Origin: Bacteroidales bacterium
GTDB taxonomy: Bacteria; Bacteroidota; Bacteroidia; Bacteroidales; UBA932
Length of the DNA: 64,000 nucleotides
NCBI GenBank assembly: GCA_017519865.1
Contig: JAFWRQ010000003.1
Coordinates: 62,001 to 126,000, forward strand
Reading direction: 5' to 3'
The translations under genes were made by a program, and so were the position numbers. Of this stretch, positions 11,404-40,384 are shown in pieces. The notes below the pieces were generated by a model. That model was not told where the DNA came from. It made no database searches and saw only the letters and a list, made by a program, of their open reading frames with translations. Position 1 is the first letter of the stretch. The number at the start of each line of letters is the position of its first letter.

Positions 11404-11411
11404 TATTTTTG
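11404..11411 (+). promoter_or_regulatory. -7 box of the SGNH-regulator-GH32 unit
   Basis: TATTTTTG at 11404-11411 matches TAnnTTTG, with a TTTG at 11384-11387 upstream (16-nt spacer, shorter than the ideal 19). The first ATG is at 11451. Confidence 0.6.
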
Positions 11412-11450
11412 TTTTGAAATAGGTTCGGATTGTATAAATTGATTGCAGAT

Positions 11451-12986
11451 ATGAAAAGAATCGTACTTTTTCTGACATTGTCCTTTGTGTTTTCGTATGC
11501 TTTCGCGCAGGCTCCGCAGCGCGGAGGGGAACAGGATTTCCAGCAGATGCGCCGCATGATGGACTGGGCGGGCTTCGACCGCTATGCCGAAGCCAACAAG
11601 GAAGTGAAGGAGAGTCCGCTGGTGGTTTTCATGGGCGACTCCATCACTGATTTCTGGGGACAGTACAGGCCGGGTTTCTTCACTGACCACAACTATCTCT
11701 GCCGTGGTATCGGTGCCCAGACCGTCGAGCATATGCTCTCGCGTTTCCACGCCGACGTCGTGGACCTGCATCCCCGTGCCGTAGCCATCCTGGCGGGCAT
11801 CAACAATATAGCAGGAAACAACGGAAAGATTACCTTCGAGAATATCGTGGGGTGCATCGCTTCCATGTGCGAGACGGCGAAGGCTAACGGAATCGTCCCT
11901 ATCATCTGTTCATTGCTCCCTTGTGACCGTTTCTTCTGGAATACCGAGGCAAAACCCGCGCAGGATGTGATACGTCTCAACGGTATGCTCAAAGCATACG
12001 CTGACAAGGCGGGCGTGGCATATGTCGACTATCATTCGCAGATGGGACTTCCGGACGGTTCCCTTCCGAAGGAGTATTCCGAGGACGGATGCCATCCTAC
12101 GGTTGCAGGATACGAGAAAATGGAAGCCATTATCGTTCCGGAGATTGACCGCATACTTGCGGCGGCCGGCCCGGCGAGGCCTGCGGGTCCTGCGCCTCAG
12201 GCTGGTCCCGCACGCCCGGCCGGCCCGTCCGACTGGGGCAATTTCAAACGTTACGAGGAGGCCAATGCCTCGGTCGCATCCGCTCCGCTTATGGTCCTGA
12301 TGGGCGATTCCATAACCGACTACTGGTATGACACCGACCCGGATTTCTTCACCCGCAACAATTTCGTCGGGCGCGGTATCGCGGGCCAGACCGCGAGCCA
12401 GATGCTCGTCCGCTTCAAGCAGGACGTAATTGCCCTGAAGCCGAAGGCCGTCGCCATCATGGCCGGCACGAATGATCTCTGCCAGAATATGATGGGACAG
12501 TCCTACTATCCCGACCAGACCATCATCGACAATACGGTGGCGATGTGCGAACTCGCCGAGGCCGCCGGCATCAAGGTCCTTCTCTGCTCCATCACTCCGG
12601 TCGCCCACTACATGCCCATTCCCGACATGGACGCCGGCACCAGGATCGTTGCACTCAACAAGCGTCTCAAGGCCTATGCCGACAGCCACAAGAACGTCAC
12701 GTATGTCGATTATCATACCCCTCTGGCCGATTCCGAGCTCGGCCTGGCCGATGACAGTTCCTACGACGGGGTCCATCCTGCCGTCAATATCTATGACGAC
12801 ATGGAGCGTATCCTTGTGGACAGCGTCCGCAAGGTCCTGAAACTCAAGAAACAGCAGTTCTATACCCTGCCTTCTGAAGAAGCCGACCGCCGCAAGGTCG
12901 AGTCCGACGCCGACAGGAAGGCGAAGAACATGCCGATGAACTTCAAGGGAATGGTAGAGATGATGAGCCGCATGCGTACCAGATGA
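11451..12986 (+). CDS. Secreted tandem SGNH/GDSL esterase
   Basis: The protein is 511 aa with a signal peptide (about residues 1-20). Two complete SGNH hydrolase domains are joined by a Pro/Ala/Gly linker (about 238-260). Domain 1: MGDSITD (Ser64), GINN (block III Asn) and DGCHP (Asp212, His215). Domain 2: MGDSITD (Ser287), GTND and DGVHP. In domain 1 the usual GTND reads GINN. These enzymes remove acetyl or other acyl groups from sugars. The stop overlaps the start of the hybrid regulator by 4 bp (ATGA), so enzyme and regulator are translationally coupled. The longer in-frame start at 11430 would put charged residues before the signal peptide. It is the first gene of the locus. Confidence 0.88.
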   Translation: MKRIVLFLTLSFVFSYAFAQAPQRGGEQDFQQMRRMMDWAGFDRYAEANKEVKESPLVVFMGDSITDFWGQYRPGFFTDHNYLCRGIGAQTVEHMLSRFHADVVDLHPRAVAILAGINNIAGNNGKITFENIVGCIASMCETAKANGIVPIICSLLPCDRFFWNTEAKPAQDVIRLNGMLKAYADKAGVAYVDYHSQMGLPDGSLPKEYSEDGCHPTVAGYEKMEAIIVPEIDRILAAAGPARPAGPAPQAGPARPAGPSDWGNFKRYEEANASVASAPLMVLMGDSITDYWYDTDPDFFTRNNFVGRGIAGQTASQMLVRFKQDVIALKPKAVAIMAGTNDLCQNMMGQSYYPDQTIIDNTVAMCELAEAAGIKVLLCSITPVAHYMPIPDMDAGTRIVALNKRLKAYADSHKNVTYVDYHTPLADSELGLADDSSYDGVHPAVNIYDDMERILVDSVRKVLKLKKQQFYTLPSEEADRRKVESDADRKAKNMPMNFKGMVEMMSRMRTR

Positions 12987-15751
12987 AATTCCGCTTGGCA
13001 TACCTGCTGTTGATACTCTCTCTCCTCGCTTCGTGTTCAAGGGAGAGTGACAGATTCGTGATAGGTGTCTCGCAGTGCAGCGTGGATGCCTGGCGCGAAG
13101 CCGCCAATAACGAGATCCAGCAGGAAGCGGCGTTCTACAACAATCTTGAAGTTCGTTTCCGTTCCGTCCATGACGATTCGCAGCAGCAGGAAAAGGACAT
13201 AGAGGAGTTCATGGACGAGAAGGTGGACCTGCTCGTGATTTCTCCCAACGAGTCGACTTACCTTACTCCCGTCATAGAGAAGGCCTATCTTTCAGGCATC
13301 CCAGTCATACTGTTCGACCGCAAGATCGACAGCGAGCTTTATACGGCTTTCATAGGCGGAGACAACCGCCAGATCGGCAATATGGCCGGTGCATACGCGA
13401 TGAACATCCTGATGAATACCGGCCGTATATGTCTGATCCGCGGAACCAAGGGCTCCACAGCCGACACTGAGCGATATGAGGGCTTCATGGAGTCCCTTCG
13501 GGAGAACAGCGCTTTTTCAGGGGAGGTAGTCTCGGAAACCTATGCCAATTTCAATCGCGTAAGGGCCTCAAGTGCGATGATGCGTATCCTTGAGGATGGC
13601 GGGGGACCTTTCGACCTTGTGTTCGCCTTCAACGACGAAATGGCAGCCGGGGTCTATGATGCTTATTTGTCGGCAGGTATCTCCGACAGACCGTACATAA
13701 TGGGCATCGATGCTCTCCTGTCACCTGACGGGAACGGGACCATACCGTACATTCTGAAAGGAATGATAGACGCTTCCTTGATCTACCCGACCGGAGGCAA
13801 GGATGTGGTCGATCTGGCCAGGAGAATACTGTTGGGAGAGGATTTCGAAAAGGAGAATGTCCTCAACACCGAGGTGGTGAACAGTTCGAACGTGAGGATC
13901 TACCAGATGCAGATGAGCCAGCTGCTGGACAGGCAACGCCGTGTGGAGGAACTCAACTCCAGGATCCGCACCAATTCCAGCAAGTACGAAAGGCAGCAGA
14001 TCCTGACCATCTTCTCTTTCTCACTCGTGGCCATCCTCGCTCTTCTTTCCATCGCTCTCGCTTACTCGTACCGTACCCGCAATAGGCTGGTACAGATGCT
14101 GAACGAGCAGAACACCCGGATCAAGAAGCAGATCGAGTCGCTCGAGGTCCAGAAGAAGCAGCTGCTGGACCTGTCGCAGCAGCTCGAAGAGACTACCCAG
14201 GCGAAACTCGTGTTCTTCACCAACATATCCCACGAGTTCAAGACGCCCCTGTCGCTGATCAGCGGTCCCATAGACGACCTGCTCGCCACCAAGGGCATGC
14301 CCCAGAGCGCCCAGGTCCCGCTGGACATACTCAAGCGTAACAGCAGTAAACTGGAGCGCCTTATCACCGAACTCCTCGATTTCAGGACATATGAGAATTC
14401 CAAGATGGTGGTGAACTACTCCATGGGTGACATGGACGGGTTCCTCAAGGAGATTCTCAAGATGTTCTCGGACGTTATACGCAGGCGAAACCTCCATTTT
14501 TCTTACGAGGCGGACGACGCCGGGTATGAGATCCCGTTCGACCCCATCAAGCTGGAGAAGGTTTTCACCAATCTCCTGTCCAATGCCTTCAACCACGTGG
14601 ACAGGGAGGGGACGATACGTATCCGCCTGTTCTCAACTTATTCCGGCGATGACCGTACCGTCAACCTTGCCGTATTCAACAGCGGTTCGTATATTCCTCC
14701 TGAGAATATGGAAAAGATATTCCAGCGCTTCTATACGCTGGATGCACAGCAGAAAGGGACCGGTATAGGACTCGCCCTTGTCACATCCATAGTCGATGCC
14801 TTGGGAGGCACTGTCAAGGTGGAAAGCAGCGAAGGCGTAGGCACGGCTTTCACCCTTCAGCTCCCTGTGAAGAAAGGGCTCCATACGGATGCCCGTGTCG
14901 ACAAGTCCTACGTCCCCGAGTTCGCCAAGCTCAAGCTTGCGACAATGGGTGAGGAAGATGTGGATGCCGGCATCATAGACGAGATGTCGGCGAGCGAAGA
15001 GAAGAAGCACGTCCTCGTGGTGGAGGACAACATGGATATGCGCTATTACATCCGGAACATCCTTTCTTCGGACTATCATGTAATTATGGCAAAGGACGGG
15101 GATGCCGGTCTGGCGAAGGCGCAGCGGTTCATCCCGGACATCATCCTGTGCGACATCATGATGCCGGGCAAGGACGGGTATGAGGTGGTATCCACCCTTC
15201 GCGCCAATCCCGCAACGAAGAACATCCCCATCATACTTCTGACCGCGTGCTCGCTGGACGAGCAGCGGGCACAGGGTTACGAATGCGGCGCGGATGCATT
15301 CATGCAGAAGCCTTTCAACGTCACTACCCTTAAGGTCCGAATGAAGAAACTCCTGGAGAAAAGCGCTTCCATCACTGCTGAGATCCAGGGAGACTGGCTT
15401 GTGGGGAAAGATGCCGGGACTCTCTCTCCGGCGTCGGTTACGATGCTCAACAAGTTCCGCGAATACGTTGAGTCCCATATACTTGACGATATCAGCCTGG
15501 ATGACCTGGCTGGTGCTCTCGGCTACTCCAAATCCAAACTGTACAGGGAGCTGAAGGAGGTCACCGAGTACACACCGATCGACCTCGTAAACCTCGTGCG
15601 CCTGCACAAGGCGGTGGACCTTATGACGGTCGAACACCAGAACATCACCGAGGCCGCCTTCAACAGCGGATTCTCGTCCCCGTCCTATTTCTCCCGCACG
15701 TTTCTGAAGTATTACCACATGCGGCCTAAGGACTACCTGAAGAGAAGTTGA
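12983..15751 (+). CDS. Hybrid two-component regulator with periplasmic sugar-binding domain
   Basis: The protein is 922 aa. In order: a signal with a lipobox-like LLASC (Cys18); a type I periplasmic-binding (LacI/ribose-binding-like) domain, about 25-305; a membrane helix, about 341-362; a coiled coil, about 365-405; HisKA with ISHEF (His417); HATPase with NLLSNAFNHV and GTGIGLALV; a receiver, about 676-795, with Asp724 and Lys776; and an AraC-type DNA-binding domain, about 824-921. The G1 box is degenerate (NSGSYIP). The design matches the fructose-sensing regulator of the Bacteroides thetaiotaomicron fructan locus (BT1754), with the sugar-binding domain in place of the more common propeller sensor. 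It probably senses fructose in the periplasm and activates this locus. GH32 follows after 25 bp. Confidence 0.92.
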   Translation: MKFRLAYLLLILSLLASCSRESDRFVIGVSQCSVDAWREAANNEIQQEAAFYNNLEVRFRSVHDDSQQQEKDIEEFMDEKVDLLVISPNESTYLTPVIEKAYLSGIPVILFDRKIDSELYTAFIGGDNRQIGNMAGAYAMNILMNTGRICLIRGTKGSTADTERYEGFMESLRENSAFSGEVVSETYANFNRVRASSAMMRILEDGGGPFDLVFAFNDEMAAGVYDAYLSAGISDRPYIMGIDALLSPDGNGTIPYILKGMIDASLIYPTGGKDVVDLARRILLGEDFEKENVLNTEVVNSSNVRIYQMQMSQLLDRQRRVEELNSRIRTNSSKYERQQILTIFSFSLVAILALLSIALAYSYRTRNRLVQMLNEQNTRIKKQIESLEVQKKQLLDLSQQLEETTQAKLVFFTNISHEFKTPLSLISGPIDDLLATKGMPQSAQVPLDILKRNSSKLERLITELLDFRTYENSKMVVNYSMGDMDGFLKEILKMFSDVIRRRNLHFSYEADDAGYEIPFDPIKLEKVFTNLLSNAFNHVDREGTIRIRLFSTYSGDDRTVNLAVFNSGSYIPPENMEKIFQRFYTLDAQQKGTGIGLALVTSIVDALGGTVKVESSEGVGTAFTLQLPVKKGLHTDARVDKSYVPEFAKLKLATMGEEDVDAGIIDEMSASEEKKHVLVVEDNMDMRYYIRNILSSDYHVIMAKDGDAGLAKAQRFIPDIILCDIMMPGKDGYEVVSTLRANPATKNIPIILLTACSLDEQRAQGYECGADAFMQKPFNVTTLKVRMKKLLEKSASITAEIQGDWLVGKDAGTLSPASVTMLNKFREYVESHILDDISLDDLAGALGYSKSKLYRELKEVTEYTPIDLVNLVRLHKAVDLMTVEHQNITEAAFNSGFSSPSYFSRTFLKYYHMRPKDYLKRS

Positions 15752-15775: not shown

Positions 15776-18001
15776 ATGCGTAAAACCGTTACCCTTTTGG
15801 CGGGCTTCTGCCTGCTCCTGGCATCCTGCTCCGACCGGCAGGTCATTATCGACGATTTCGAATCGGGCAATCTGGACAAGTGGACGATTGAGGGAAATGC
15901 CTTTCCGATGACTCCCAAGAGTGTTTCGGACCACCCCGGAATCAGCGGCGTGGAAGGAGGCTTCTTCGCGGGAAGCGATTGCGAAGGTGAGAGCGTAATG
16001 TCCGGTTCCGGACAGATGACTTCCGTACCCTTCACCGTCAGCCGTGACTATGTGAACTTCCTGCTCGGAGGTACTTCCGACCGGTTCGGCAGCCGTTTCG
16101 TAACTGTCGAACTGCTTGTCGACGGCGAACCTGTCCTGGCCACACATCCGCGGTCTTCCAGTGAAGAGGTGCTGGAGTGGTGCTCCTGGGACGTACGTGA
16201 ATACAAGGGCCGCAGCGCCAGCGTACGGGTCAAGGTGGATCCCGTAACCATGCGTTATCCTCTCAGCTCGAAGTCCGTCATCATCGATCAGGTGATGCAG
16301 TCGAACCGGAAGATGGGTACATTCAATGATTTGCTTTCGATGCCTGTCAAGGTCACTGACGACTGGCTCCTCATCCCGTCGTCCAACTCCGGACGGGGTT
16401 CGTCACTGTCGATTCTTTGTGACGGGGAGAATATCCTGGGAGGGGCTCAGAACATCAACCTCGCAGAAGGGACGGCAGACTATAACATACCGGTGAACGT
16501 TTCAGCCTACAAGGGCAAGACTATCGAGCTGCGGCTCACTTCAGTGGACGACGGGGACCTTACGGTAACGGGGCTTACGCAGGGTTCCGATCGCGGCATC
16601 GACTATGATGAGCCTTACAGGCAGGTCTATCATTTCACACCTGACTTCGGCTGGACCAACGACCCGAACGGAATGGTCTATTACGATGGCGAGTATCACC
16701 TGGCCTATCAAGCCAATCCTTACGGCACCAAGCATTCCAACATGCACTGGGGCAATGCGGTATCGACCGACCTGGTCCACTGGCAGGATCTCCCGTTCAT
16801 AATCGCGCCTGACGGGCTTGGTTCCATATTCTCCGGCAGCGCGGTCGTTGACACGGACAACACCGCAGGCTTCGGCAAGAACGCCATCATCGGTATGTAC
16901 ACGTCAGCGAGCAGAACCCAGAAGCAGAGCATCGCATACAGTACCGACCGCGGCCGCACCTATACCAAGTATGAAGGCAATCCTGTCCTCTCCGACGATG
17001 AGAAGCAGCCCAACTTCCGCGATCCGAAGGTCATACGTTACGGAGACGGCTGGGTCGTGTGTGTGGCTGCCGGAGACGTGATCGCATTCTACGGTTCGGA
17101 CAATCTGAAGGATTGGACCAAACTCAGCGAGTTCGGCAAGGGGATAGGTTCCCACGCCGCCGTCTGGGAGTGTCCGGACCTCCTGAAATTCGACTATAAC
17201 GGCCGAGAGAAATGGGTCCTGATCGTAAACATCAACCCCGGCGGCCCCAACGGGGGCAGTGTCGCGCAATACTTCATCGGAAGTTTCGATGGCCGTACCT
17301 TCAAGGCGGACGACCTGCCCTATCCCCTGTGGATTGACGAGGGCACCGACAACTATGCCGGCGTTACCTTCAGCAATACCGGAGACCGTCATATCTTCCT
17401 CGGATGGATGAGCAACTGGCTCTACTCCAATATGGTCCCTACCATCAATTTCCGCAACAGCATGACCCTTGCCCGTGACCTCTCCCTGAAGGACAACGGA
17501 CGTCATCTGTTCCTCGCCAGCGTCCCTTCGCCCGAGATCTACGCCGCTCGCGGCGAGGCCCGTGAGGTGGAGGTCCCCCACCTGAACGGAGGTTTCAGCG
17601 TGGACAGCATACTTCCGGACAACAAGGGAGCCTACGAGATCGATTTCACCATAAAGCCGGGAAAGGACGACAGGCTGACCTTCAAACTGATGAACGGCAA
17701 GGGTGAAGAGATGGTCTATACTTTCGATTTCAAGGCCCTGACACTCAATCTCGACCGGTCCCGCAGCGGTATCGTGGATTTCTACAGGGGTTTCGCCAAG
17801 ACCGACATCCTGACACACCTCGTCAGACGGGACAGTTATCCCGTGCAGGTGTTCGTCGACCGCCAGTCCATCGAGGTTTTCGTGGGAGACGGCGACCTCA
17901 CCTTCACCAACTGCATGTTCCCTACGGAAGTCTACAACCGTCTGGAACTCTCTTCCGGCGACTGCAGCGTTTCGGATATGAAAATCTTTGAAATCAAATA
18001 G
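15776..18001 (+). CDS. GH32 fructosidase lipoprotein with N-terminal accessory domain
   Basis: The protein is 741 aa. The lipobox LLLASC (Cys18) suggests outer-membrane anchoring. Residues of about 20-275 form beta-rich accessory domain(s), as in some Bacteroides GH32 enzymes. The five-bladed catalytic domain has all three acids: WTNDPNG (nucleophile Asp296), FRDPKV (Asp416) and ECPD (acid/base Glu465). The C terminus is the usual GH32 beta sandwich with the SIEVFVGDGD strand. It should release fructose from sucrose, levan or inulin; exo or endo mode cannot be read from sequence. It lies 25 bp after the regulator and is followed by a terminator. Confidence 0.93.
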   Translation: MRKTVTLLAGFCLLLASCSDRQVIIDDFESGNLDKWTIEGNAFPMTPKSVSDHPGISGVEGGFFAGSDCEGESVMSGSGQMTSVPFTVSRDYVNFLLGGTSDRFGSRFVTVELLVDGEPVLATHPRSSSEEVLEWCSWDVREYKGRSASVRVKVDPVTMRYPLSSKSVIIDQVMQSNRKMGTFNDLLSMPVKVTDDWLLIPSSNSGRGSSLSILCDGENILGGAQNINLAEGTADYNIPVNVSAYKGKTIELRLTSVDDGDLTVTGLTQGSDRGIDYDEPYRQVYHFTPDFGWTNDPNGMVYYDGEYHLAYQANPYGTKHSNMHWGNAVSTDLVHWQDLPFIIAPDGLGSIFSGSAVVDTDNTAGFGKNAIIGMYTSASRTQKQSIAYSTDRGRTYTKYEGNPVLSDDEKQPNFRDPKVIRYGDGWVVCVAAGDVIAFYGSDNLKDWTKLSEFGKGIGSHAAVWECPDLLKFDYNGREKWVLIVNINPGGPNGGSVAQYFIGSFDGRTFKADDLPYPLWIDEGTDNYAGVTFSNTGDRHIFLGWMSNWLYSNMVPTINFRNSMTLARDLSLKDNGRHLFLASVPSPEIYAARGEAREVEVPHLNGGFSVDSILPDNKGAYEIDFTIKPGKDDRLTFKLMNGKGEEMVYTFDFKALTLNLDRSRSGIVDFYRGFAKTDILTHLVRRDSYPVQVFVDRQSIEVFVGDGDLTFTNCMFPTEVYNRLELSSGDCSVSDMKIFEIK

Positions 18002-18036: not shown

Positions 18037-18070
18037 ATGGACTGTCTTGAGGAAAGATAGTCCATTTTTT
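18037..18070 (+). terminator. Terminator after the first GH32 gene
   Basis: A 12-bp stem has ATGGACT (18037-18043) pairing with AGTCCAT (18059-18065), and inner GTCTT pairing with AAGAT including one G-T. The loop has 5 nt and a T run (18065-18070) follows. It closes the SGNH-regulator-GH32 unit. Confidence 0.82.
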
Positions 18071-18141: not shown

Positions 18142-19869
18142 ATGAAAAGGTTTTTTCTAGTCTCCATCCTTGCATTGATTTCCTTCTCCGGAATCAATGC
18201 TCAGATAGTTAAATCCAAAGTGATTGACGGAGGCGGCTCCGGACCTTTCAAGGCCCTCGTCGTCAGTGAACAGACCCTTCCCGAATTCACTGTATACCGT
18301 CCGGAGAGGTTGCTTGAAGCTGCCGGAGCGGACGGGATCCTCCCCGTCATCATTTTCGGCAATGGCGGCTGCGTCAACACTTCCGTAGGCCACGAGCGTT
18401 TCCTCAATGACCTGGCCTCCTACGGCTATGTCATAGTGGCCATCGGCCCTTTCCAGGCCGGCAGCGACTCGCGTACCATACCGGAGTCGAGGGTTTCAAC
18501 CGAGTCTTATCTCATGCACAAGGGCTTAGACTGGATCTGCAACCAGGCCCGCGATGAGAAGAGCGAGTATTTCGGGAGCGTCAACGTAAATCAGGTGGCC
18601 TCGATGGGTATGTCCTGCGGCGGTGCCCAGGCTATGTACCTGTCCTCCGATCCCAGGGTCAAGACCCTCGTAATGCTCAATTCCGGAATGGGTACCGTTA
18701 CTATGGCGAATGCCAGCAGAGTCAATGTACTGGCCGTCCACAGCCCAACCGTCTATATAACTGGTGGAGAGGAGGATATCGCTTACAAGAATGCGGAGGC
18801 CGACTATGAGCTCATCGATGATGTTCCCGTTGCCTGGGTTAATCTCCCGGTCGGGCACGGAGGCACTTACGCCGATGAGTTCGGCGGCGAGTTCTCCCGA
18901 ATGACCCGCACCTGGCTCGACTATGTGTTCAAGGGACACAACGAGGGAGAGCGTGTTTTCAAGGACCTTGACCTGACGGGATTTGATGGCTGGACGGCCC
19001 AGTCCAAGAACTTCGAAGGCCGCCTTGTCCCCCGTGCCAATCGGGATGCTACGATGGAGGCATACCGCGCGCTGCGTCCGACTCCGGACAAGTGGGCGAA
19101 ACCTACGGGCCCCTACAAGGTGGTGATGGAAGTTGACGAGACCTGTCCCGACCATACTATCTACCGTCCTGAGGACCTGAGCAAGTTCTCCGCCAAGAAT
19201 CCTCTTCCGATCATCGTAATGTCCGGTCCCGGATGCGACTATGACGGAGATTCCTACCGCCCGTTCTGGACCGAGGTTGCTTCTTACGGCTATGTGATCG
19301 TCGCTTCAGGACTTCCGGTCAAGGAAGGTTTACGCGCTGCAATGGGTTTCAACAAGGTTTCCAGTTACGAGGCCGCCCTCGATTGGGCCGCGAAGGAGAA
19401 CGCCCGCAAGGACAGTAAGTATTATGGTAAGCTTGCCCCGGACAACTGTGCCGCGATGGGACAGTCCTGTGGAGGTTTCCTGACCGCTTCCTATATGAGC
19501 GATCCCAGGATGAAGTGCCTGATGTTCTGGAATGCCGGTGGCACCCCGACAGGTGAGGATGCGGCGCAGCCTTCCATGCCGGTGGCCTTCTTCTCCGCCG
19601 ACAACGACATGGCCCTGGCCGGGGCGACCGCTTCCTACAATGCGGTCACCGCAGTGCCCGCTTTCTTCGGCAGGTGCGATATTCCCGGTGACGCTCATGG
19701 CGGCACCTTCCGCGAGGTCAACGGAGGCCCTTACGGCAAAGCCGCGGTGGCATGGCTCAACTGGCATCTGAAGGGCCAGACCAAGTATGCCAAGAATTTC
19801 AGGCCCGGCAAGGCCGGCCTCTTCAAGGACGCCCGTTGGCTCGAGACCCAATCCAAGAATATCAAGTAA
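18142..19869 (+). CDS. Secreted tandem alpha/beta hydrolase with GxSCGG elbows
   Basis: The protein is 575 aa with a signal peptide (about 1-20). It is built from two homologous alpha/beta hydrolase domains, about 25-275 and 318-550. Each has a chlorophyllase/dienelactone-hydrolase-like layout: PVIIFGNGGC and PIIVMSGPGC strands, SYGYVIVA in both, then nucleophile elbows GMSCGG (Ser158) and GQSCGG (Ser442), and C-terminal GHGGTY (His239) and AHGGTF. Both domains keep their Ser and His, so both may be active. The Cys after Ser is unusual. Substrate unknown; an acyl ester of the sugar targeted by this locus is the best guess. It lies alone between a terminator and the next promoter. Confidence 0.82.
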   Translation: MKRFFLVSILALISFSGINAQIVKSKVIDGGGSGPFKALVVSEQTLPEFTVYRPERLLEAAGADGILPVIIFGNGGCVNTSVGHERFLNDLASYGYVIVAIGPFQAGSDSRTIPESRVSTESYLMHKGLDWICNQARDEKSEYFGSVNVNQVASMGMSCGGAQAMYLSSDPRVKTLVMLNSGMGTVTMANASRVNVLAVHSPTVYITGGEEDIAYKNAEADYELIDDVPVAWVNLPVGHGGTYADEFGGEFSRMTRTWLDYVFKGHNEGERVFKDLDLTGFDGWTAQSKNFEGRLVPRANRDATMEAYRALRPTPDKWAKPTGPYKVVMEVDETCPDHTIYRPEDLSKFSAKNPLPIIVMSGPGCDYDGDSYRPFWTEVASYGYVIVASGLPVKEGLRAAMGFNKVSSYEAALDWAAKENARKDSKYYGKLAPDNCAAMGQSCGGFLTASYMSDPRMKCLMFWNAGGTPTGEDAAQPSMPVAFFSADNDMALAGATASYNAVTAVPAFFGRCDIPGDAHGGTFREVNGGPYGKAAVAWLNWHLKGQTKYAKNFRPGKAGLFKDARWLETQSKNIK

Positions 19870-31477: not shown

Positions 31478-34400
31478 ATGAATAAATCTTTATTACTTGT
31501 CCTTGCGACGGCGTTCATGCTGGCTTTCCCTGCTTGGCTGAGCGCTCAGACCAAGTCGGTAAAAGTGAACGTAGTGGATTCCTACGGTCCTGTGGCCGGA
31601 GCGGCCATCCAGGTTAAGGGAACCACTAATGGAGAAGTGACCGACTTGGATGGAAATGCGACGATCTCCAATGTGGACGAATCGTCCGTTCTGGTGGTAT
31701 CCTTCATTGGATATACTACTCAGGAAATCACTGTCGGGAACCGTTCTGCCTTGAGCGTTACGCTCAAGGAGGACACCGAACAGCTTGATGAAACCGTTGT
31801 TGTAGGTTACGGTACCCAGCGAAAGGAGTCCCTGACCAGTGCCATTACATCCGTCCGTTCGGAGGATGTGACCAAGACGAAGCAGAACGATGTCATCACC
31901 GCCCTCCAGGGAAAGGTCCCCGGACTCCTCATCCGTCAGTCCGGTGGTACCCCTGGTGCTTTCGGAGCCGACTTGAGCCTCCGCGGCTACGGTGCCCCTA
32001 TGATCGTCATCGACGGTGTCGTCCGTTCCAATTCCTACAGGAACAACAACAAAGGTATCAACACCGACCTCGAGTTCTCGCAGCTGAACCCTGAGGACAT
32101 CGAGAGCATCTCCGTCCTGAAGGATGCCTCCGCATCCATTTACGGTCTCGGTGCGGGCAATGGCGTCATCATGATCACCACCAAGAAAGGCTCCGCAATG
32201 AAGAAGCCTTCTGTGACCTATTCCAACGTGTTCTCCTTCGGACGGCCGAAGATGCCTCAGGAAGTGAGCATCGCCGACTACGTCAAACTCTCCAACGAAA
32301 TGGCCGATGTGGCTAAGTTCCCCCGTCCGTTCTCCGACGAGGACATCAAGGCGGCCGAGAACGGTACCTTGACCAACTTCAGTTGGTGGGATGCCGCAAT
32401 GAAGCACCATTCCACCACCCAGACCCACAACCTCTCCGTCCGCGGCGGTAGCGATGCGATGACCTACTTCATTTCCGGCAGTTTCAACGACGACCAGAGT
32501 ATCTACAAGTCGCCCAACAACTACAAGTACCGGCGTTACACCCTGCGCGGCAACTTCACATTCAAACTGACCGACGACCTGTCGATGGATTATCAGACTT
32601 CCTTCCGCGCCACATCTTCTGCCGACCCGGCCAATGATGACGTGTACAACGAGAAGTCCAATATGATCTTCAACTACATCGCTTTCTCGGACCGTACCGT
32701 TCCGGCCACTATTCCGGAGAACCCGAACCACTATACTTATCAGGGACAGTCTCCGACCGAGAACCCTATCGCGATGATGGACCATAACCTGAATTACACC
32801 GATAAGCGCGGCCGCGCTTTCACTAATACGGTGAATTTCAACTACAATCCTCACTTTGTGAAGGATCTCAAGCTCCTCCTCCAGGGCGCATACGACTTCA
32901 ACTATGACGGAGCCTACACCAAGAAGACCGTCTATCCTCTCTACTCGTTCGATGCCGAGCATTATAACGAGCAGGTAGGTGAAGGAGGTGACGAGAACTC
33001 CTACCGTGAGAGCGTCAATGAGCGTGAACGTATGTACGTCCGCTTCCAGGCCAACTACAACAAGGTGTTCGGTAAGCACAGCATCTCTGCGATGGCTGCA
33101 GCCGAGGCTACCAAGATGAATACCCGCAACATGACCGGCAAGCGTCTGTTCGGCGATTTCTTCACCCATCCTACGATCAACAGCGGCCTGGCCGGCACCG
33201 ATTCCGCGACAGGTACGCGTACTTCCTCTGCGACTGCAGGATATCTCGGCCGTATCAACTACGAGTATGCCAGCAAGTATCTGGTCGAGCTCATGGGCCG
33301 TTATGACGGCACCTATATCTATCAGCACGGACACCGCTGGGGTTTCTTCCCTTCATATTCCCTCGGCTGGAGAATCTCGGAGGAGCCGTTCATCAAGAAC
33401 AACTTCCCCTGGATCAGCAACCTCAAGCTCCGCTGGTCGGACGGCAAGACCGGTATGACCCAGGGCAGTGCATACGCCTATCAGATGGGCTATGTCCCGG
33501 GCAGCACATACGTCTTTACCCCCGGAAGCCAGGTCCAGGGATACGTGAACAACGAGGTCGCCAATACCATCCTCACCTGGTCGGACATCCGGATGATGGA
33601 CGCCGGTATCGACTGGAATCTCTGGAGTGACAAGTTCAGCGGTACCTTCGATATCTTCCAGCGCATGCAGACCGGTATCGCAGGACGCAGTTCCGGCTCC
33701 ACCCCGACCATCCTCGGCGTCTCCGAGCCCCAGATCAACATCGACTCGCGCGTTACCGCCGGTATGGAACTCACTCTCTCGCATCGCAACCGCATCGGTG
33801 ACTTCAACTACTATGCAACCGCGACGGGTACGATATCCCGTACGATGAACCTCCATATCGAGAGCCAGGCTACGTCGCAGTACTATGCCTCCATGAACTA
33901 TTACGGCGCAGGCTTCATCATGAACGGATCAGCCAGCACGCAGAACCGTTGGACCGACTATCATGGCCTGTGGAAGTACGGCCTCGAGGGAGGACGCTTC
34001 ACCTCGTGGGAGGATATATACAACTCCCCGGTCAAGTACGACGCCAACACAGGTATGCAGACCACCGTACTCGGACAGTACAAGCTCCTCGACTGGAACG
34101 GTGACGGCTACATCACCGCCCACGACGTCCAGTATGCATGGCCTGAGGCCAACCCTTCATTCCAGTTTGGCCTCAACATGGGTTTCAACTGGAAGAACCT
34201 CGATTTCAACATGGTATGGCAGGGTGCCACGATGACTTCGAAGATCATCTGGCTGCTCCACACCTTCGGATACGGCGGTTACAACAACATCTACACGATG
34301 TACCTCGACCGTTACCATGTGGCCAACCAGGGTGACGACCCGTACGATCCCACCACCCAGTGGGTCGAGGGTTATTGGCCCGCCTTGATGGACTCCTCCG

Positions 34401-34687
34401 ATGCCAACAACTGGCGTCCCGGTATGTACGATGCCCCGTCCGACTTTACCCAGCTGGACGCCACGTACTTCCGCCTGAAGAGTTTCGAACTGGGCTACAC
34501 CCTTCCCAGGAACCTGCTTTCCAAGGTCGGCATGCGTTCCCTCCGCGTTTATGTCGGCGGTACCAACTGGCTGACCTTCACCAACAAGAAGATCGCAGCC
34601 TACGATCCCGAGTCTGCGGCCGCCATGCAGTCCAACACCATGCCCGTCATGCGTACAGTCACGATGGGTGTCAACGTCAACTTTTAA
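31478..34687 (+). CDS. SusC-like TonB-dependent outer-membrane transporter
   Basis: The protein is 1069 aa: signal peptide (about 1-24), a carboxypeptidase-D-like regulatory domain (about 27-105), the DETVVVGYGTQ linker, a plug (about 115-235, with the LKDASASIYGLGAGNGVIMITTKKG block) and a large barrel ending in NVNF with a C-terminal Phe. It imports glycans that are handed over by SusD. With GH32 enzymes in the locus, fructo-oligosaccharides or a related fructose-containing sugar are the probable cargo. It lies 12 bp upstream of susD-like and 34 bp downstream of fructokinase. Confidence 0.96.
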   Translation: MNKSLLLVLATAFMLAFPAWLSAQTKSVKVNVVDSYGPVAGAAIQVKGTTNGEVTDLDGNATISNVDESSVLVVSFIGYTTQEITVGNRSALSVTLKEDTEQLDETVVVGYGTQRKESLTSAITSVRSEDVTKTKQNDVITALQGKVPGLLIRQSGGTPGAFGADLSLRGYGAPMIVIDGVVRSNSYRNNNKGINTDLEFSQLNPEDIESISVLKDASASIYGLGAGNGVIMITTKKGSAMKKPSVTYSNVFSFGRPKMPQEVSIADYVKLSNEMADVAKFPRPFSDEDIKAAENGTLTNFSWWDAAMKHHSTTQTHNLSVRGGSDAMTYFISGSFNDDQSIYKSPNNYKYRRYTLRGNFTFKLTDDLSMDYQTSFRATSSADPANDDVYNEKSNMIFNYIAFSDRTVPATIPENPNHYTYQGQSPTENPIAMMDHNLNYTDKRGRAFTNTVNFNYNPHFVKDLKLLLQGAYDFNYDGAYTKKTVYPLYSFDAEHYNEQVGEGGDENSYRESVNERERMYVRFQANYNKVFGKHSISAMAAAEATKMNTRNMTGKRLFGDFFTHPTINSGLAGTDSATGTRTSSATAGYLGRINYEYASKYLVELMGRYDGTYIYQHGHRWGFFPSYSLGWRISEEPFIKNNFPWISNLKLRWSDGKTGMTQGSAYAYQMGYVPGSTYVFTPGSQVQGYVNNEVANTILTWSDIRMMDAGIDWNLWSDKFSGTFDIFQRMQTGIAGRSSGSTPTILGVSEPQINIDSRVTAGMELTLSHRNRIGDFNYYATATGTISRTMNLHIESQATSQYYASMNYYGAGFIMNGSASTQNRWTDYHGLWKYGLEGGRFTSWEDIYNSPVKYDANTGMQTTVLGQYKLLDWNGDGYITAHDVQYAWPEANPSFQFGLNMGFNWKNLDFNMVWQGATMTSKIIWLLHTFGYGGYNNIYTMYLDRYHVANQGDDPYDPTTQWVEGYWPALMDSSDANNWRPGMYDAPSDFTQLDATYFRLKSFELGYTLPRNLLSKVGMRSLRVYVGGTNWLTFTNKKIAAYDPESAAAMQSNTMPVMRTVTMGVNVNF

Positions 34688-34699: not shown

Positions 34700-36661
34700 A
34701 TGAAAAAGTTATTATACATACTTTCCGCATTTGCAGCCCTCACCCTGACGTTGTCCTCCTGCGAGAAACTCTTTGACAGTCTCGAGGGTGACCTGACCAA
34801 GATGACCGGCGAGGACATGGCTTCCTCCGAAGCCGGCATCCAGATGCTCCTTGCGCAGGTGTACTCCTATATCCCCATGAACGCTTGCGGATATGAGGAC
34901 CAGTACACGCTGAATGCGGCCGACAGCCACGGTGGTGACTACGGCTTCAACTCTAACCCTTATTATGGAATGTACGGCATCCAGACCTTCTGGAACTGGG
35001 GTGCCATCCGTACCATCAACAACTTCATAGAAATCGCGGGCACTGCGGCAGAGAAGGGGACCATCACTGCCGAGGCGAAGAAGACCTATGTCGCCGAGGC
35101 CCGTTTCGTCCGTGCATACTGCTATTTCGTGATGGTCCGCAATCTCGGCGGCGTTCCCATCATCACTGAGCCCCTGGACAAGTACTATGACGGTGCCGGC
35201 AACGAGCAACTGTTCGCTTTCGCCCAGCGCGCTACCGAGAAGGAGACCTGGGATTTCGTTCTCAGTGAGTTCCAGGCTGCCGCCGACGACCTCGGTCCCG
35301 ACCCGGTCGCCCCTTATCGCGCCGACAAGTATGCCGCTCTCGGCATGAAGGCCCGCGCCGCTCTCTACGCTGCATCCGTCAGCAAGTACTGGAATGCTCA
35401 GGGCGGTATCGAGAGTTCGTATAAGGCAGTTGCCGCGAAGAAGACCTACATGGAGGCCAGTTATGCCAACGAATATTATAGCCAGTGCATCAAGGCCTGT
35501 GAGGATATCATCGGCAGCGGCAGGTTCAAACTCCACGGTGCCAATCCGTCGGGCGTCGACGAGGCTGTCAAGAACCTCGGTGAAATGTTCGTTACCGTCG
35601 CTCCTGAGGAGTTCATCTTCGGCAAGAGCCTTGACAACGGCGTCGCCTCTTCCGGAAGCGACTTCGACGTGTACAACAGCCCCGCCCAGACCGTGACCGG
35701 TAACTCCAGCTGTGGCAAGTACTCCGTCACCATCGACTTCGTGGACAAGTTCGACAACTACGATGATGCATTCGGAGCCGTTGACGGCACCGTCAAGACC
35801 CGTGCAGACGGAAAGGAAGGCGTTTTCTTCAATGCGGTCCTCTCCCGCTTCCCCAACGAGTACAAGGACATCCCTTACATCGAGTATGACAACATCAAAG
35901 ATCCGTTCCTCAAGAAGGACGCCCGCTTCCAGGCCTGGATCCTCTATCCCGACTCTCAGTTCCGCGGCCAGACCATCAAGATCCAGGGAGGCATGATCCA
36001 CCCGGACGGCAAGGCTACGCTCTGGGTTGAGGACAGCGAAACCATCGACGGCAAGAAGTACTATTCTTTCGGTGCTCCCACCGGCAACGTCTCAGGTTTC
36101 TTCAACTACGAGAACAAGATGGCGGGCAACACCGTCACCACGGGATTCAGCATACGCAAGTTCCTGGACCCTTCCTCCTTCCAGCTGTACCACAAGACCT
36201 TCTGGTATGACATACGCTACGCCGAGATCCTTCTCTCCTACGCCGAGGCTGTGGTGGAAAGCGGTCAGGGCGACAAGGCCAGGGCCAAGCAGTACCTCAA
36301 CGATATCCGTCACCGCGCCGCTTTCAAGGACGATGTGGAACTGACGCTCGAGAATGTCCTGCACCAGCGCGAACTCGAGTTCGCTTTCGAAGGCGACCAG
36401 CTCTACACCCTGCACCGTCGCCGCGCCTTCTACAACAAGCTCACCGATAACGATGTACAGGGCCAGAAGCATGCCCTCACTCCGGTCATCGACCTCCGCG
36501 GCGGTACTCCGAAGTACATCTTCGTACGTTCGATCCACTACGCAGAGGATCCCCTTACCGGTGGAAAGGCCTCGGACTACCACACCGCTCCGAAGAGTTA
36601 TTACGGGCGTATCAGCGACTTCGGTGTGAACAAGTATGAACCCAACCCTGCTGACGAATAA
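34700..36661 (+). CDS. SusD/RagB-like surface glycan-binding lipoprotein
   Basis: The protein is 653 aa, longer than many SusD proteins (about 500-600). The lipobox TLSSC places Cys at 21. The tetratricopeptide-like core is visible: TYVAEARFVRAYCYFVMVRNLGGVPI, ADKYAALGMKARAALYAASVS, and a C-terminal block DIRYAEILLSYAEAVVES, then RHRAAFK and LHQRELEFAFEGDQLYTLHRRR. It forms the lid of the SusC channel. An insertion-rich middle (about 240-440) may carry the ligand site. Confidence 0.95.
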   Translation: MKKLLYILSAFAALTLTLSSCEKLFDSLEGDLTKMTGEDMASSEAGIQMLLAQVYSYIPMNACGYEDQYTLNAADSHGGDYGFNSNPYYGMYGIQTFWNWGAIRTINNFIEIAGTAAEKGTITAEAKKTYVAEARFVRAYCYFVMVRNLGGVPIITEPLDKYYDGAGNEQLFAFAQRATEKETWDFVLSEFQAAADDLGPDPVAPYRADKYAALGMKARAALYAASVSKYWNAQGGIESSYKAVAAKKTYMEASYANEYYSQCIKACEDIIGSGRFKLHGANPSGVDEAVKNLGEMFVTVAPEEFIFGKSLDNGVASSGSDFDVYNSPAQTVTGNSSCGKYSVTIDFVDKFDNYDDAFGAVDGTVKTRADGKEGVFFNAVLSRFPNEYKDIPYIEYDNIKDPFLKKDARFQAWILYPDSQFRGQTIKIQGGMIHPDGKATLWVEDSETIDGKKYYSFGAPTGNVSGFFNYENKMAGNTVTTGFSIRKFLDPSSFQLYHKTFWYDIRYAEILLSYAEAVVESGQGDKARAKQYLNDIRHRAAFKDDVELTLENVLHQRELEFAFEGDQLYTLHRRRAFYNKLTDNDVQGQKHALTPVIDLRGGTPKYIFVRSIHYAEDPLTGGKASDYHTAPKSYYGRISDFGVNKYEPNPADE

Positions 36662-36674
36662 AAATCACACGATC

Positions 36675-37505
36675 ATGAAAAAGATATTCTTATTGCTCCC
36701 TCTTGCGTTGCTCGTCAATTCGTGCGTATTCTTCGAAATGGACAACTATGACGGACCGAATGCATCCATTTCGGGCAGGATCATAGACAGCAAGACCAAA
36801 GAGAACGTTCCGACCGAGTGCAAGTTCGGAAACTTCTTCGGCGGGGCCTATTTCGGATCTCCTACCACCGGTTATTTCTCCGTGTTCGAGAAAGGCCGTT
36901 CCGAGGTCTATGACATTCCCATCGACTACGAAAAAGCCCAGTACTGGCACATCAAATATGATGGAACTTATGTCAACACCAAGGTGTTCTCCGGTACATA
37001 CCGAATTGCCGCCACCGCAGACAACTTCTATCCTGTTACGAAGGATGACGTGAAGATCAATAAGGGCGAGAATACCCTCGACTGGGAGGTGGTCCCTTAT
37101 TGCCGTGTCGTAAACCCGAAGATAGAGCTGGTAGGTGACAAGTTCGTCGCCACCTTCGCCGTTGAGTTCGGCGACCCTACGAAGGCCAACACCGTCTATG
37201 ACGCCAAGTTGCTCTGTTATCCCGACGCTTTCGTAGGAATGTACTGCAACTACTGCAACATGGACCAGGGCGCTTCGTCGAGGAGCCTTGTCGACAATAA
37301 GGTTGTCGTGACCCCCATCGTAGCCGACGGCAAGACCCTCAATACACTGACCATAGATCCGAAGAATTCCCTCAACCAGGCCGAGTTCAAATATGCCGGC
37401 AAGGGCAAGGAGCACTTCTTCCGTATCGCGGTGTGTGCACAGGGCAACGGAGCCAATGCCAGCCGTTACTACAACTATAGTCCTACCGTGGTCATCAAAT
37501 ACTAA
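36675..37505 (+). CDS. DUF3823 surface lipoprotein (SusE-position)
   Basis: The protein is 276 aa starting MKKIFLLLPLALLVNSC (Cys17). After the signal comes the DUF3823 hallmark EMDNYDGPNASISGRIID, then two beta-sandwich-like halves. DUF3823 proteins commonly follow SusD and take the place of SusE as accessory surface glycan-binding proteins. A start at 36636 is possible but overlaps susD and would put charged residues before the signal. It ends the core SusCD block; a hairpin follows at 37531. Confidence 0.88.
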   Translation: MKKIFLLLPLALLVNSCVFFEMDNYDGPNASISGRIIDSKTKENVPTECKFGNFFGGAYFGSPTTGYFSVFEKGRSEVYDIPIDYEKAQYWHIKYDGTYVNTKVFSGTYRIAATADNFYPVTKDDVKINKGENTLDWEVVPYCRVVNPKIELVGDKFVATFAVEFGDPTKANTVYDAKLLCYPDAFVGMYCNYCNMDQGASSRSLVDNKVVVTPIVADGKTLNTLTIDPKNSLNQAEFKYAGKGKEHFFRIAVCAQGNGANASRYYNYSPTVVIKY

Positions 37506-37530
37506 TTTTTCGTATATTTAATGCGTGATT

Positions 37531-37554: not shown

Positions 37555-37582
37555 ACTTAAAACAACAGTATTGATTAAAGAT

Positions 37583-38938
37583 ATGAAAGTCAAACATTTG
37601 ATTATTGCGTGCGCCGCGCTGGTCCTGTGTGGCCAGGCTTTTGCGGCGGACCATGCCCGCGGCCAGTTGAAAGTCGGTATCGCCAGGATCGACGTCACTC
37701 CCGCCGAGGACCAGTTGGGCAGGAATTCGTATGGCATCCTTGACCATACGCATTTCCGTGTGATCCTTTTTTCCAATGGCAAGACCATCGCCGGACTGGC
37801 CAATATCGACGGCAACCCCAACCAGCGTTGTGTCGATGCGGTCAACGAGCGCATCGAGAAGGAATTCGGCATCCCTCAGGGCAACATCATCTACAACGGC
37901 ACCCACTGCCACTCGACAGGAACCGTTCCGATGGACGAACTGACCGAGAGGATGTACCAGGGCATCAAGAAGGCCTATGAAAGCATGGTTCCGGCCAAGG
38001 TCGGTACCGGCAAGGGTGTCTGCTACCTCAATGTCAAGCGCGACCTCTTCGACCCGGAGCGCGGAACTTGGTGGGAGGGCCCCGATTATGACGGCAAGTC
38101 CGACAAGACCGTCGGTGTCATCTATTTCGAGAGCCTCGACGGCAAGCCCCTCGGCGTCTATTACAACTACGCCATGCACGCCGTCATCACCGGCCAGCTC
38201 GACATGATCACCGGTGACTTCCCCGGCAAGTCCGAGGAGTACATCGAGAGCCGTTACGGCGATGACTTCGTCGCCATCTTCTCATCCGGTGCCGCCGGCG
38301 ACCAGAACCCGCTCTACTTCCAGCAGACCTTCGACCTGCGCGACATCCGCATCGCGGATTACGCCAAGCGCGGTGAGGACATCTCCAACTCCATGCCTCC
38401 GGGAGGCACCGGACTGGACCGCAACGACCCTGAGACCCACCGTCTCATGGAGGAGCAGAAGCGGATGGCCGAGAGTTATGGTCAGATCCTGGGCGAGGAA
38501 GTGAAGTACGTCGTCATGATGATGCGCCGCTTCGAGACCGACGTGACCCTCGAGGCTGCACGTACGCACATAACCTGTGCGGCGCGCCGCCAGACCAATG
38601 GAGGCGGACGCGCCGGCTATGCCGGTACTTATGAGGATGCCCCCGACATCGTCCTCGAACTCGGACTGGTGATGCTTGACGACATCCCCGTCTGCGCGGT
38701 TTCCGGCGAGGTCTACAACCAGATCGCCGTCGACCTGAAGAACGCTTCACCTTACTCCTTCACCATCATGACCACCGTCACCGACGGCCATAACCAGGGC
38801 CGCGGCGGTTATATCCCCGATGACGAGGCGTATGGTGCAGAAGTGTTCGAGGTTCTCACTTCCGGTTACAAACAGGGAACGGCACATATGGGCATCGTAA
38901 ACGGCCTCCTGGACCTGATCCACGACGCCACCCACTGA
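37583..38938 (+). CDS. Neutral ceramidase-like (PF04734) secreted protein, copy 1
   Basis: The protein is 451 aa from the ATG at 37583, with a signal peptide (about 1-22). The ceramidase N-domain pattern is present: KVGIARIDVTPAED, GTHCHSTG, NYAMHAVITG (metal-binding His) and SSGAAGDQNPLY. In true neutral ceramidases the last motif is GDVSPN and its Ser is the nucleophile; here it reads GDQNP, so amide hydrolysis of ceramide is doubtful. At 451 aa it also lacks most of the C-terminal domain of full ceramidases (about 650 aa). It is paralogous to the next gene. Function unknown; a role in the glycan locus is inferred from position. Confidence 0.75.
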   Translation: MKVKHLIIACAALVLCGQAFAADHARGQLKVGIARIDVTPAEDQLGRNSYGILDHTHFRVILFSNGKTIAGLANIDGNPNQRCVDAVNERIEKEFGIPQGNIIYNGTHCHSTGTVPMDELTERMYQGIKKAYESMVPAKVGTGKGVCYLNVKRDLFDPERGTWWEGPDYDGKSDKTVGVIYFESLDGKPLGVYYNYAMHAVITGQLDMITGDFPGKSEEYIESRYGDDFVAIFSSGAAGDQNPLYFQQTFDLRDIRIADYAKRGEDISNSMPPGGTGLDRNDPETHRLMEEQKRMAESYGQILGEEVKYVVMMMRRFETDVTLEAARTHITCAARRQTNGGGRAGYAGTYEDAPDIVLELGLVMLDDIPVCAVSGEVYNQIAVDLKNASPYSFTIMTTVTDGHNQGRGGYIPDDEAYGAEVFEVLTSGYKQGTAHMGIVNGLLDLIHDATH

Positions 38939-38991
38939 TGCACGCAGCAGTCTTTGCATTGAGAATGAGGATACTGTATTAACGACTCAAA

Positions 38992-40335
38992 ATGATGAGA
39001 AAGATAATGTTGACCCTGCTCGGAGCGCTGGTGCTCGCGACGGGGATCTGCAATGCACAGCGCGGCCAGTTGTATGCAGGGGCGTCCAAGTCCGACATCA
39101 CTCCGGACGAGGCGTCGCTGCCCAAGACTTCGCAGGGTATACTCGACCACTGTTTTGCCCGTGCGATCGTATTTACGAACGGCATCACCAAGGCCGCATT
39201 CGTAACCATGGATGCTGCGATGAGCAATAATCGGATGGTCGCAGCCGTAAACGAGCGTGCAGCCAAGGAACTCGGTATTCCTGAAGGGAATATCCTGTAT
39301 AACTGGACTCACACCCACTCCGGTTCATCCGTTTTCGGCGACGAACTCAACGAACGTGTCTTCCAGGCGTTGAAGGAGGCCAACGGCCGCCTGGTGCCCG
39401 CCAAGGTGGGCTACGGCAACGGCGTCTGCTACCTCAATGTCAAGCGCGACCTCTTCGACCCCGAGCGCGGGACATGGTGGGAAGGCCCCGACTATGACGG
39501 CAAGTCCGACAAGACCGTGGCCGTCATCTATTTCGAAAGCCTTGAAGGCAAGCCCATAGCGACTTATTTCAACTATGCGATGCATGCCGTCATCACCGGC
39601 AATACAGACAAGGTGAGCGCCGACTTCCCGGGTGAGGCCGAGACCTATGTCGAGAGCCGTTACGGCGACGATTTCGTGGCTTGCTTCGCTTCCGGCGCCG
39701 CCGGCGACCAGAACCCGCTCTATTTCCAGCAGACCTTCGATCTTCGCGATATCCGTATCAAGGATTATGCGGAGCGCGGAGAGGACATCTCCAACGCGAT
39801 GCCTCCGGGGGGCCAGGGTCTGGACCGCACTAAGCCCGAGGTGCAGAGACTTCTCGGCGAACAGGAGCGTATGATCCGCAGTTACGGACAGATCCTCGGC
39901 GAGGAGGTGAAGTACGTCATCATGATGATGCGCCGCTTCGAGACGGACGTTACGCTGAAGTGCCTGCACAAGACAGTCACTTGCCCTGCCCGCCGTCAGC
40001 TCAACGGAGGCGGACGCGCCGGTTACGAAGGACAGTACGAGGATGCAGGCGAGGCCACGATAGACCTCCACCTTACCATGCTGGACGACATCCCGGTCGT
40101 GGGAACGAGCGGCGAACCGTACAATCCTATAGCGGTGGAACTGAAGCAAAAGTCCCCGTATGCCCGCACGATGTTGACAACGCTCTGCCAGGGTACCTTC
40201 ACGGGCTACATTCCCGACGATGAATCCTATGGAGCCCAGTCCTTCGAGGTGTTGGGATCCCGCTTCAAACAGGGATATGCGCAGAAGGCCATCGTGGACG
40301 GGGCGCTGGACCTGATCCACGAGGCGACTCACTGA
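38992..40335 (+). CDS. Neutral ceramidase-like (PF04734) secreted protein, copy 2
   Basis: The protein is 447 aa with a signal peptide (about 1-20). It is a tandem paralog of the gene at 37583. Motifs: GASKSDITPDEA, WTHTHSGSS, NYAMHAVITG and ASGAAGDQNPLY. The nucleophilic Ser of ceramidases is again replaced (GDQNP). The block around CYLNVKRDLFDPERGTWWEG is almost identical in both copies at the DNA level (about 38029-38110 and 39424-39510), while the N-termini differ, which points to duplication with local gene conversion. A strong terminator follows. Confidence 0.75.
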   Translation: MMRKIMLTLLGALVLATGICNAQRGQLYAGASKSDITPDEASLPKTSQGILDHCFARAIVFTNGITKAAFVTMDAAMSNNRMVAAVNERAAKELGIPEGNILYNWTHTHSGSSVFGDELNERVFQALKEANGRLVPAKVGYGNGVCYLNVKRDLFDPERGTWWEGPDYDGKSDKTVAVIYFESLEGKPIATYFNYAMHAVITGNTDKVSADFPGEAETYVESRYGDDFVACFASGAAGDQNPLYFQQTFDLRDIRIKDYAERGEDISNAMPPGGQGLDRTKPEVQRLLGEQERMIRSYGQILGEEVKYVIMMMRRFETDVTLKCLHKTVTCPARRQLNGGGRAGYEGQYEDAGEATIDLHLTMLDDIPVVGTSGEPYNPIAVELKQKSPYARTMLTTLCQGTFTGYIPDDESYGAQSFEVLGSRFKQGYAQKAIVDGALDLIHEATH

Positions 40336-40342
40336 TAAGGTG

Positions 40343-40384
40343 GCACCCCGCGGGCATTTACCCGCGGGGTGCTGCTTTTTTTTT
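40343..40384 (+). terminator. Strong terminator closing the fructose locus
   Basis: A perfect 12-bp GC-rich stem GCACCCCGCGGG (40343-40354) / CCCGCGGGGTGC (40361-40372) with a 6-nt loop, followed by a run of nine T (40376-40384). Confidence 0.93.

Follow-up and report, generated by a model that had tools for sequence, protein, structure and literature searches.

An esterase-rich SusCD locus of a Bacteroidales bacterium as a candidate utilization system for acylated sucrose

We analysed a 64,000-nucleotide stretch of a Bacteroidales genome (hereafter the window; contig JAFWRQ010000003.1, positions 62,001 to 126,000), taken from a draft assembly of 2.1 Mb that is 75% complete. Between 11430 and 40335 it holds a locus of 18 genes, all on the + strand and separated by gaps of no more than 230 bases when likely starts are used, in which fructan-type sugar genes stand together with seven esterase genes. 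The locus may be dedicated to the use of small sugar esters, namely acylated sucrose, and not to that of fructan, a reading to which we give a probability of about one half. A preliminary description of this DNA had left the substrate as either acyl-sucrose or acyl-fructan. The sugar can now be narrowed to most likely sucrose, and the acyl-fructan side is weakened by related loci that carry GH13 only; the esterases in the locus suggest, in turn, that the sucrose would bear acyl groups. Gene identities were assigned from Pfam and NCBIfam profile scans of the window proteins, as follows.

11430 (TTG; likelier start ATG 11451) to 12986, + strand: double GDSL/SGNH esterase (PF13472, two stretches)
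12983-15751, + strand: hybrid two-component sensor/regulator of BT1754 type (Peripla_BP_4, HisKA/HATPase, receiver and AraC domains, Pfam)
15776-18001, + strand: GH32 (a), probable lipoprotein (PF00251, 286.9 bits)
18037-18065, + strand: terminator-like hairpin 3' of GH32a (12 pairs, T-rich tail; consensus scan)
18142-19869, + strand: double alpha/beta hydrolase of PETase/DLH/chlorophyllase type (PF12740, 37.5 bits)
19981-21726, + strand: GH13, predicted to be exported (PF00128, 274.2 bits)
21746-22714, + strand: PF00756 esterase, CE1/feruloyl-esterase-like, probable lipoprotein (Pfam)
22725-23852, + strand: BD-FAE type esterase 1 (PF20434, 67.0 bits)
23889-24923, + strand: BD-FAE type esterase 2 (PF20434, 64.5 bits)
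24957-26453, + strand: type-B carboxylesterase, COesterase (PF00135, 294.5 bits)
26463-27410, + strand: BD-FAE type esterase 3 (PF20434, 45.1 bits)
27417-29207, + strand: GH32 (b) (PF00251, 299.4 bits)
29372-30601 (likely start ATG 29438), + strand: MFS sugar permease (PF07690)
30598-31443, + strand: PfkB sugar kinase, fructokinase-like (PF00294)
31478-34687, + strand: SusC (TIGR04056, 750.2 bits)
34700-36661, + strand: SusD (PF07980, 105.7 bits)
36636-37505 (likely start ATG 36675), + strand: DUF3823 probable lipoprotein (PF12866, 27.2 bits; cut-off 27)
37571-38938 (likely start ATG 37583), + strand: ceramidase-like protein a (PF04734, 36.0 bits)
38992-40335, + strand: ceramidase-like protein b (PF04734, 55.8 bits)

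The preliminary description had proposed a core of sensor, two GH32 enzymes, MFS permease, kinase, SusC/SusD and DUF3823 protein, every member of which the scans verified, and a ceramidase-like pair after SusCD, both of which exceed the cut-off of 32.1 bits for PF04734 (neutral ceramidase). Its count of seven esterase genes with nine hydrolase domains holds for the locus as a whole, but not its placement of all of them between the GH32 genes: six genes (seven domains) and GH13 lie there, and the seventh, the double GDSL gene, is found 5' of the sensor and outside that interval.

With SusC and SusD adjacent and a regulator and carbohydrate-active enzymes present, the locus is a SusCD polysaccharide utilization locus, and it holds together the full BT1754-type fructan set of hybrid two-component system (HTCS) sensor, GH32, MFS, kinase and SusCD. 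The levan/fructan locus BT1754-BT1765 of Bacteroides thetaiotaomicron shares the BT1754-type sensor, GH32, MFS, fructokinase and SusCD, as described in the part of PMC7782687 available to us, in whose main text the word "esterase" does not appear. In contrast, the window locus adds seven esterase genes, GH13 and the ceramidase-like pair, and its sensor differs at marked positions described below.

The genes present, their order and conservation, the fused frames and the catalytic motifs are observed; from these we infer a substrate, cell locations, activities and a sensor ligand as follows. SusCD would take the sugar ester across the outer membrane, and exported esterases of several families would remove acyl groups from different positions, perhaps with help from the ceramidase-like proteins. 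The bond of the freed sucrose would then be split by GH13 from the glucose side and by GH32 from the fructose side, after which the MFS permease would import hexose and the kinase would phosphorylate fructose. The BT1754-type sensor would switch the genes on when a released sugar appears. Glycosidases working on opposite sides of one bond would suit a substrate with either ring blocked.

The choice of sugar depends on how the two glycosidases are distributed among related loci (genomes, contigs and locus stretches are denoted by G, C and L numbers, and the window genome is G000). Among eight esterase-bearing loci with a kinase, GH13 and GH32 occur together in four (G000, G342, G096 and G276), GH32 alone in two (G341 and G199; at the level of the locus, GH13 not having been searched for elsewhere in these genomes), GH13 alone in two (G275 and G301), and neither in none. 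A PF00251 search of the whole genomes of G275 and G301 (78% and 81% complete) and of G334 found no GH32, and such absences are limited claims because the genomes are draft assemblies. We favour sucrose over fructan since, with an unchanged kinase and transporter alongside, GH13 can stand in for GH32 and vice versa; the loci with GH13 only could hardly use fructan. Sucrose is proposed because its bond is the simplest that an alpha-glucosidase and a beta-fructosidase alike would cut, giving fructose.

Four of these loci (G199, G276, G275 and G301) retain esterases, MFS and kinase, and no SusCD orthologous to that of the window was found in the stretches examined. The G199 locus consists of double GDSL, PF00756, BD-FAE1, carboxylesterase, BD-FAE3, GH32b, MFS, kinase and ceramidase-like a genes. 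The G276 locus has GH13 and GH32b and occupies the same chromosomal site as the window locus, with HEM4/DUF4271 on one side and a TMEM260-like gene on the other. A remote SusC/SusD pair (27-29%) adjoins the kinase in G301, and a remote SusC-like frame lies farther away in G275. Across 151 genomes of the window genus, window included, an ortholog of the PF00756 esterase (at least 80%) was found in nine and SusD (>1000 bits) in four, all among those nine, in a comparison uncorrected for kinship. Outside that genus, three genomes (G134, G187 and G144), which belong to one other genus, have a bare GH32-MFS-kinase operon. The loci without orthologous SusCD and these bare operons point to a small substrate. 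Upstream of the window locus lie a PF00756 esterase gene at 6932-7765, which was not counted as a member of the locus, and a DUF3089 hydrolase gene at 7858-8805; G341 and G276 can be seen to share this chromosomal site from the presence of DUF3089 together with HEM4/DUF4271.

The preliminary description had named esterases missing beside GH32/SusCD in related genomes as evidence of chance neighbourhood, and this comparison was carried out with loci selected by SusD similarity alone, not by esterases. Two peptide patterns, derived by aligning SusD proteins, were run against 84,980 species genomes, and we kept the best 80 of 129 relatives, five of which have SusD identities of 63-84% to the window, the remainder of those 80 reaching at most 51%. 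The five case relatives (L092 in G341, L093 in G254, L094 in G228, L095 in G342 and L125 in G096) are uncultured Bacteroidales or Bacteroidia, one of them from water-buffalo rumen. The locus type recurs in all five, ceramidase-like genes and esterases included, so the esterases are not missing from these relatives. GH32 and SusD share a contig in four of the five; in G254, whose locus is scattered across several contigs, GH32 is on another short contig. Within the case genomes GH13 occurs in the window, G342 and G096, SASA esterases occur in four, and the carboxylesterases of G096 and G228 have 33-40% identity. On G342:C9 (L190-L191) MFS and kinase are duplicated, before SusCD and after the ceramidase-like and SASA genes.

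As controls we used 14 of the 33 strong GH32 matches (>190 bits) found outside the case genomes in 199 family genomes, four from the window genus and ten others, some on short stretches (5.3 and 9.5 kb). An esterase lies within 12 kb of GH32 in 6/6 case genomes and at 1/14 control loci (Fisher p = 0.0002, kinship ignored). The case genomes have two to eight such matches each, the window's eight including the gene at 6932-7765; 13 control loci have none and G161 has one carboxylesterase. Two controls of the window genus, G107 and G022, are plain HTCS-SusCD-GH32-MFS-kinase loci. Esterase matches per 10 kb were 2.1 in the five loci of the same type, 0.59 in 26 sister SusCD loci and 0.02 in 49 remoter ones, by BLAST with the window esterases, the 6932-7765 gene and one SASA protein as queries, a choice that favours the case loci. 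Chance neighbourhood was rejected on the presence of esterases in all SusD-chosen loci against 1/14 controls, and on the loci without orthologous SusCD.

Several reading frames join these functions. GDSL is fused to alpha/beta hydrolase (ABH) in G096 and G228 and to GH13 in the G275 locus, and the G301 locus (L273) has both a GDSL-ceramidase-like b homologue fusion and a GH13-PF00756 esterase fusion. In the window, signal-like N-termini are visible on the locus esterases, and their nucleophile motifs (GDS or GxSxG type) look intact, both as judged by eye. Both domains of the double GDSL protein carry GDSIT and DxxH, and GMSCGG and GQSCGG are the nucleophile motifs of the double alpha/beta hydrolase. 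The three BD-FAE type esterases all pass the PF20434 cut-off of 26.8 bits and may have feruloyl/acetyl esterase activity; the first matches PDB 7dwc with an E value of 3.5e-37. Cleavage of both acetyl and feruloyl esters is described for a BD-FAE relative in the accessible part of PMC8165983. The closest PDB relatives of the PF00756 esterase are feruloyl esterases, as weak matches.

Both GH32 enzymes were assigned by family and catalytic motifs, and a fructan-degrading specificity may be no more than putative. GH32a has an N-terminal extension of about 190 residues without a Pfam match and the motifs WTNDPNG, FRDP and WECP. In a tree, the GH32b proteins of the window, G341, G342 and G254 form one clade with 100/100 support, whose long stem measures 0.88 changes per column, and the GH32a proteins from the window, G254 and G096 make up a second; the G228 GH32 falls elsewhere on a long branch. 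When 17 GH32 proteins were compared, WMNDANG and FECP beside the catalytic acids were found in the four GH32b only and in 0/13 others. A dedicated acyl-sucrose system, in which the GDSL, PF00756, GH13 and serine-less ceramidase-like fusions would work with a GH32 lineage altered at the active-site edge so that it takes esterified sucrose directly, is a more specific form that we advance only tentatively.

The closest PDB entries to GH13 are oligo-1,6-glucosidase, trehalose synthase and sucrose isomerase. Its motifs GFRVDMAAS, IAEWF and GNHD are present, and we take the catalytic Asp, Glu and Asp to lie at these positions. We propose that it may be a sucrose-cleaving alpha-glucosidase, a suggestion drawn solely from the GH32-less loci with a kinase. 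Remote GH13 homologues at L238, L239, L244 and L245, from other families of the order, carry a QPALN motif.

The sensor has 2x7x (BT1754 type) as its best PDB match (E 1.3e-68). In all six case sensors the AHND of BT1754 is replaced by A(F/L)ND and its AAW by ANF, at positions with a putative pocket-lining role, whereas the sensor of the plain G107 locus retains the BT1754 H and W. Because the case sensors differ at these positions, their ligand need not be free fructose. The pattern is not exclusive to esterase loci, since it is shared by the G066 sensor, and the GH32 locus of that genome, on a 5 kb contig, has no esterase in view. Fructose-contact residues of BT1754 were not found in the portion of PMC3404733 at hand. 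The best NCBIfam model for the MFS permease is gluP, under the model cut-off, and for the kinase the fructokinase model scores no higher than the IolC model, each reaching 96.9 bits and both being under cut-off. The DUF3823 protein, also under the cut-off of PF18003, is possibly a surface glycan-binding protein.

The ceramidase-like proteins share with the neutral ceramidase family the H, H, H and E positions, invariant in our alignment and presumably with a role in zinc binding. Where human ceramidase reads GDVSPN, a GDxSPN motif that we take to hold the catalytic serine of neutral ceramidase, GDQNP is instead invariant in 12/12 aligned ceramidase-like proteins. The window proteins are also, unlike that family, only about 450 residues long. 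In a sample of 393 order genomes (few of the window genus), 17 gave a match to the profile, the strong ones being the window copies only; the next-best match has 128 bits, and identity was 23-27% in ten such loci examined. A six-frame PF04734 search of G228 gave no match, and its copies were recognised by similarity to those of the window; further copies are found in G254:C62 and G096. Lipid as the main substrate was rejected because the serine position of ceramidase is not kept.

Several observations weigh against acylated sucrose. The PF00756/BD-FAE/COesterase cassette lies on contigs without GH32 in three genomes (G341:C29, G254:C2 and G096:C8), about 14 kb from GH32 in G228, and in G334, a genome in which PF00251 found no GH32; the cassette contigs of G254 and G334 are each <10 kb. 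A GH127-like gene accompanies the cassette in G341, G096, G228 and G276 (GH127-like genes at L182:15242-17449, L187:11766-14105, L185:7717-10062 and L271:11165-13468; PF07944 in the three scanned), with HETC and ECC motifs in two and one copy inside a GH32/GH13 operon. GH3 adjoins the double GDSL gene in G254:C62 (L260:10576-12534), two GH43 genes lie beyond the ceramidase-like gene in G199 (L280:1053-3638), and a 3-keto-disaccharide hydrolase (PF06439) stands amid two GH32 genes in G254:C53 (L192:4234-5070). Xylan is the target of the nearest characterized BD-FAE and PF00756 type relatives, and esterases are frequent across the window genus. The fused frames were seen in draft assemblies only, a truncated BD-FAE2 frame adjoins one fusion in G301, and the G275 and G301 genomes are incomplete. 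Fructose is not singled out by the kinase models, and GH13 may act on another alpha-glucoside: at four remote GH13 homologue loci with scanned neighbours these were mixed (GH65 at two, an acetyl xylan esterase (AXE1) at one, GH5 and GH9 at one), so that no clear GH13 subfamily could be assigned by neighbours. Since part of the cassette is also found apart from GH32, in some cases with a GH127-like gene alongside, the esterases do not all have to act on one molecule, and some may serve other plant esters.

The detached cassettes, G334, the GH127-like genes and the GH43 genes near the G199 locus would also fit an ordinary sucrose/fructan locus joined by an independent esterase cassette for esters of arabinoxylan or L-arabinofuranose glycans, with position or regulation shared and not substrate. 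Xylan-active esterase relatives point the same way. Xylan loci such as the one from which BD-FAE came, as far as the available part of PMC8165983 describes them, likewise combine multiple esterase families, BD-FAE-type enzymes included, in a SusCD locus. We consider an independent cassette unlikely, since the MFS-kinase operon itself contains cassette genes in six genomes (G000, G342, G199, G276, G275 and G301) and GH13-esterase and GDSL-GH13 frames are fused. Furthermore, no xylanase or other backbone enzyme, GH43, GH51 or arabinose-removing glycosidase was found by Pfam in the window locus, where GH32 and GH13 are the only glycosidases.

We also doubt that the locus acts broadly to deacylate several kinds of small plant glycoside, with sucrose esters just one of them and the related SusCD clade directed at acylated beta-glucosides. 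This idea draws on the sister SusCD loci (SusD 44-51%; 26 loci and L263 of the window genome), where PF00756-type esterases occur in 12/27, COesterase in five, a family whose single scanned protein belongs to GH3 in four and HTCS in nine, and no GH32 match was found in 26 (L096-L121). All three scanned PF00756-type esterases from these loci have a CBM48-like domain, and the loci have the look of "esterase loci" in which no backbone hydrolase is evident. The GH3 gene beside the double GDSL gene is in keeping with it, and the ceramidase-like, SASA and GH127-like genes broaden the chemistry. The kinase, GH32 and BT1754-type sensor, however, indicate a fructoside as trigger and food.

Quite improbable is a system for acylated fructan or fructo-oligosaccharides, in which esterases would clear the way for GH32 exo-enzymes and GH13 would take the terminal glucose: no acylated plant fructan is known to us, although no search was aimed at one; in the genomes of two kinase-bearing esterase loci with GH13 no GH32 was found; and four loci lack orthologous SusCD. 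Its appeal is the likeness of the core gene set (HTCS, GH32, MFS, kinase and SusCD) to the B. thetaiotaomicron levan locus, as set out in the available part of PMC7782687.

Consensus scans for regulatory sites gave 17 terminator-like sites in the region where 16.7 were expected, and the hairpin at 18037-18065 is merely suggestive because this count is at chance level. Sigma-70-like sites numbered 18 against 12.4 expected, and a Bacteroides-type promoter pattern matched twice in the window and nowhere within the locus. A GH95 family enzyme is encoded downstream of the locus and outside it, at 51446-53920.

In plants, sugar esters occur as defence and phenolic compounds. Plant acylsucroses are acted on by fructofuranosidase and acylhydrolases (PMC7599763, in the part available), and acylsucrose turnover in tomato (ASFF1 and acylsugar acylhydrolases) resembles the system proposed here in setting a fructofuranosidase and esterases on acylsucrose. 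Those are plant enzymes for the plant's own acylsugars, in contrast to a bacterial uptake locus, and we claim no membership in that system. In the accessible portions of the open-licence literature we found no description of a bacterial gene system for the uptake of acylated sucrose as food. If the acyl-sucrose reading is true, the locus would reveal how sugar esters are stripped and used by some gut-type Bacteroidales, would offer fused esterase-glycosidase enzymes, and would give a testable role to a ceramidase-like family without the catalytic serine.

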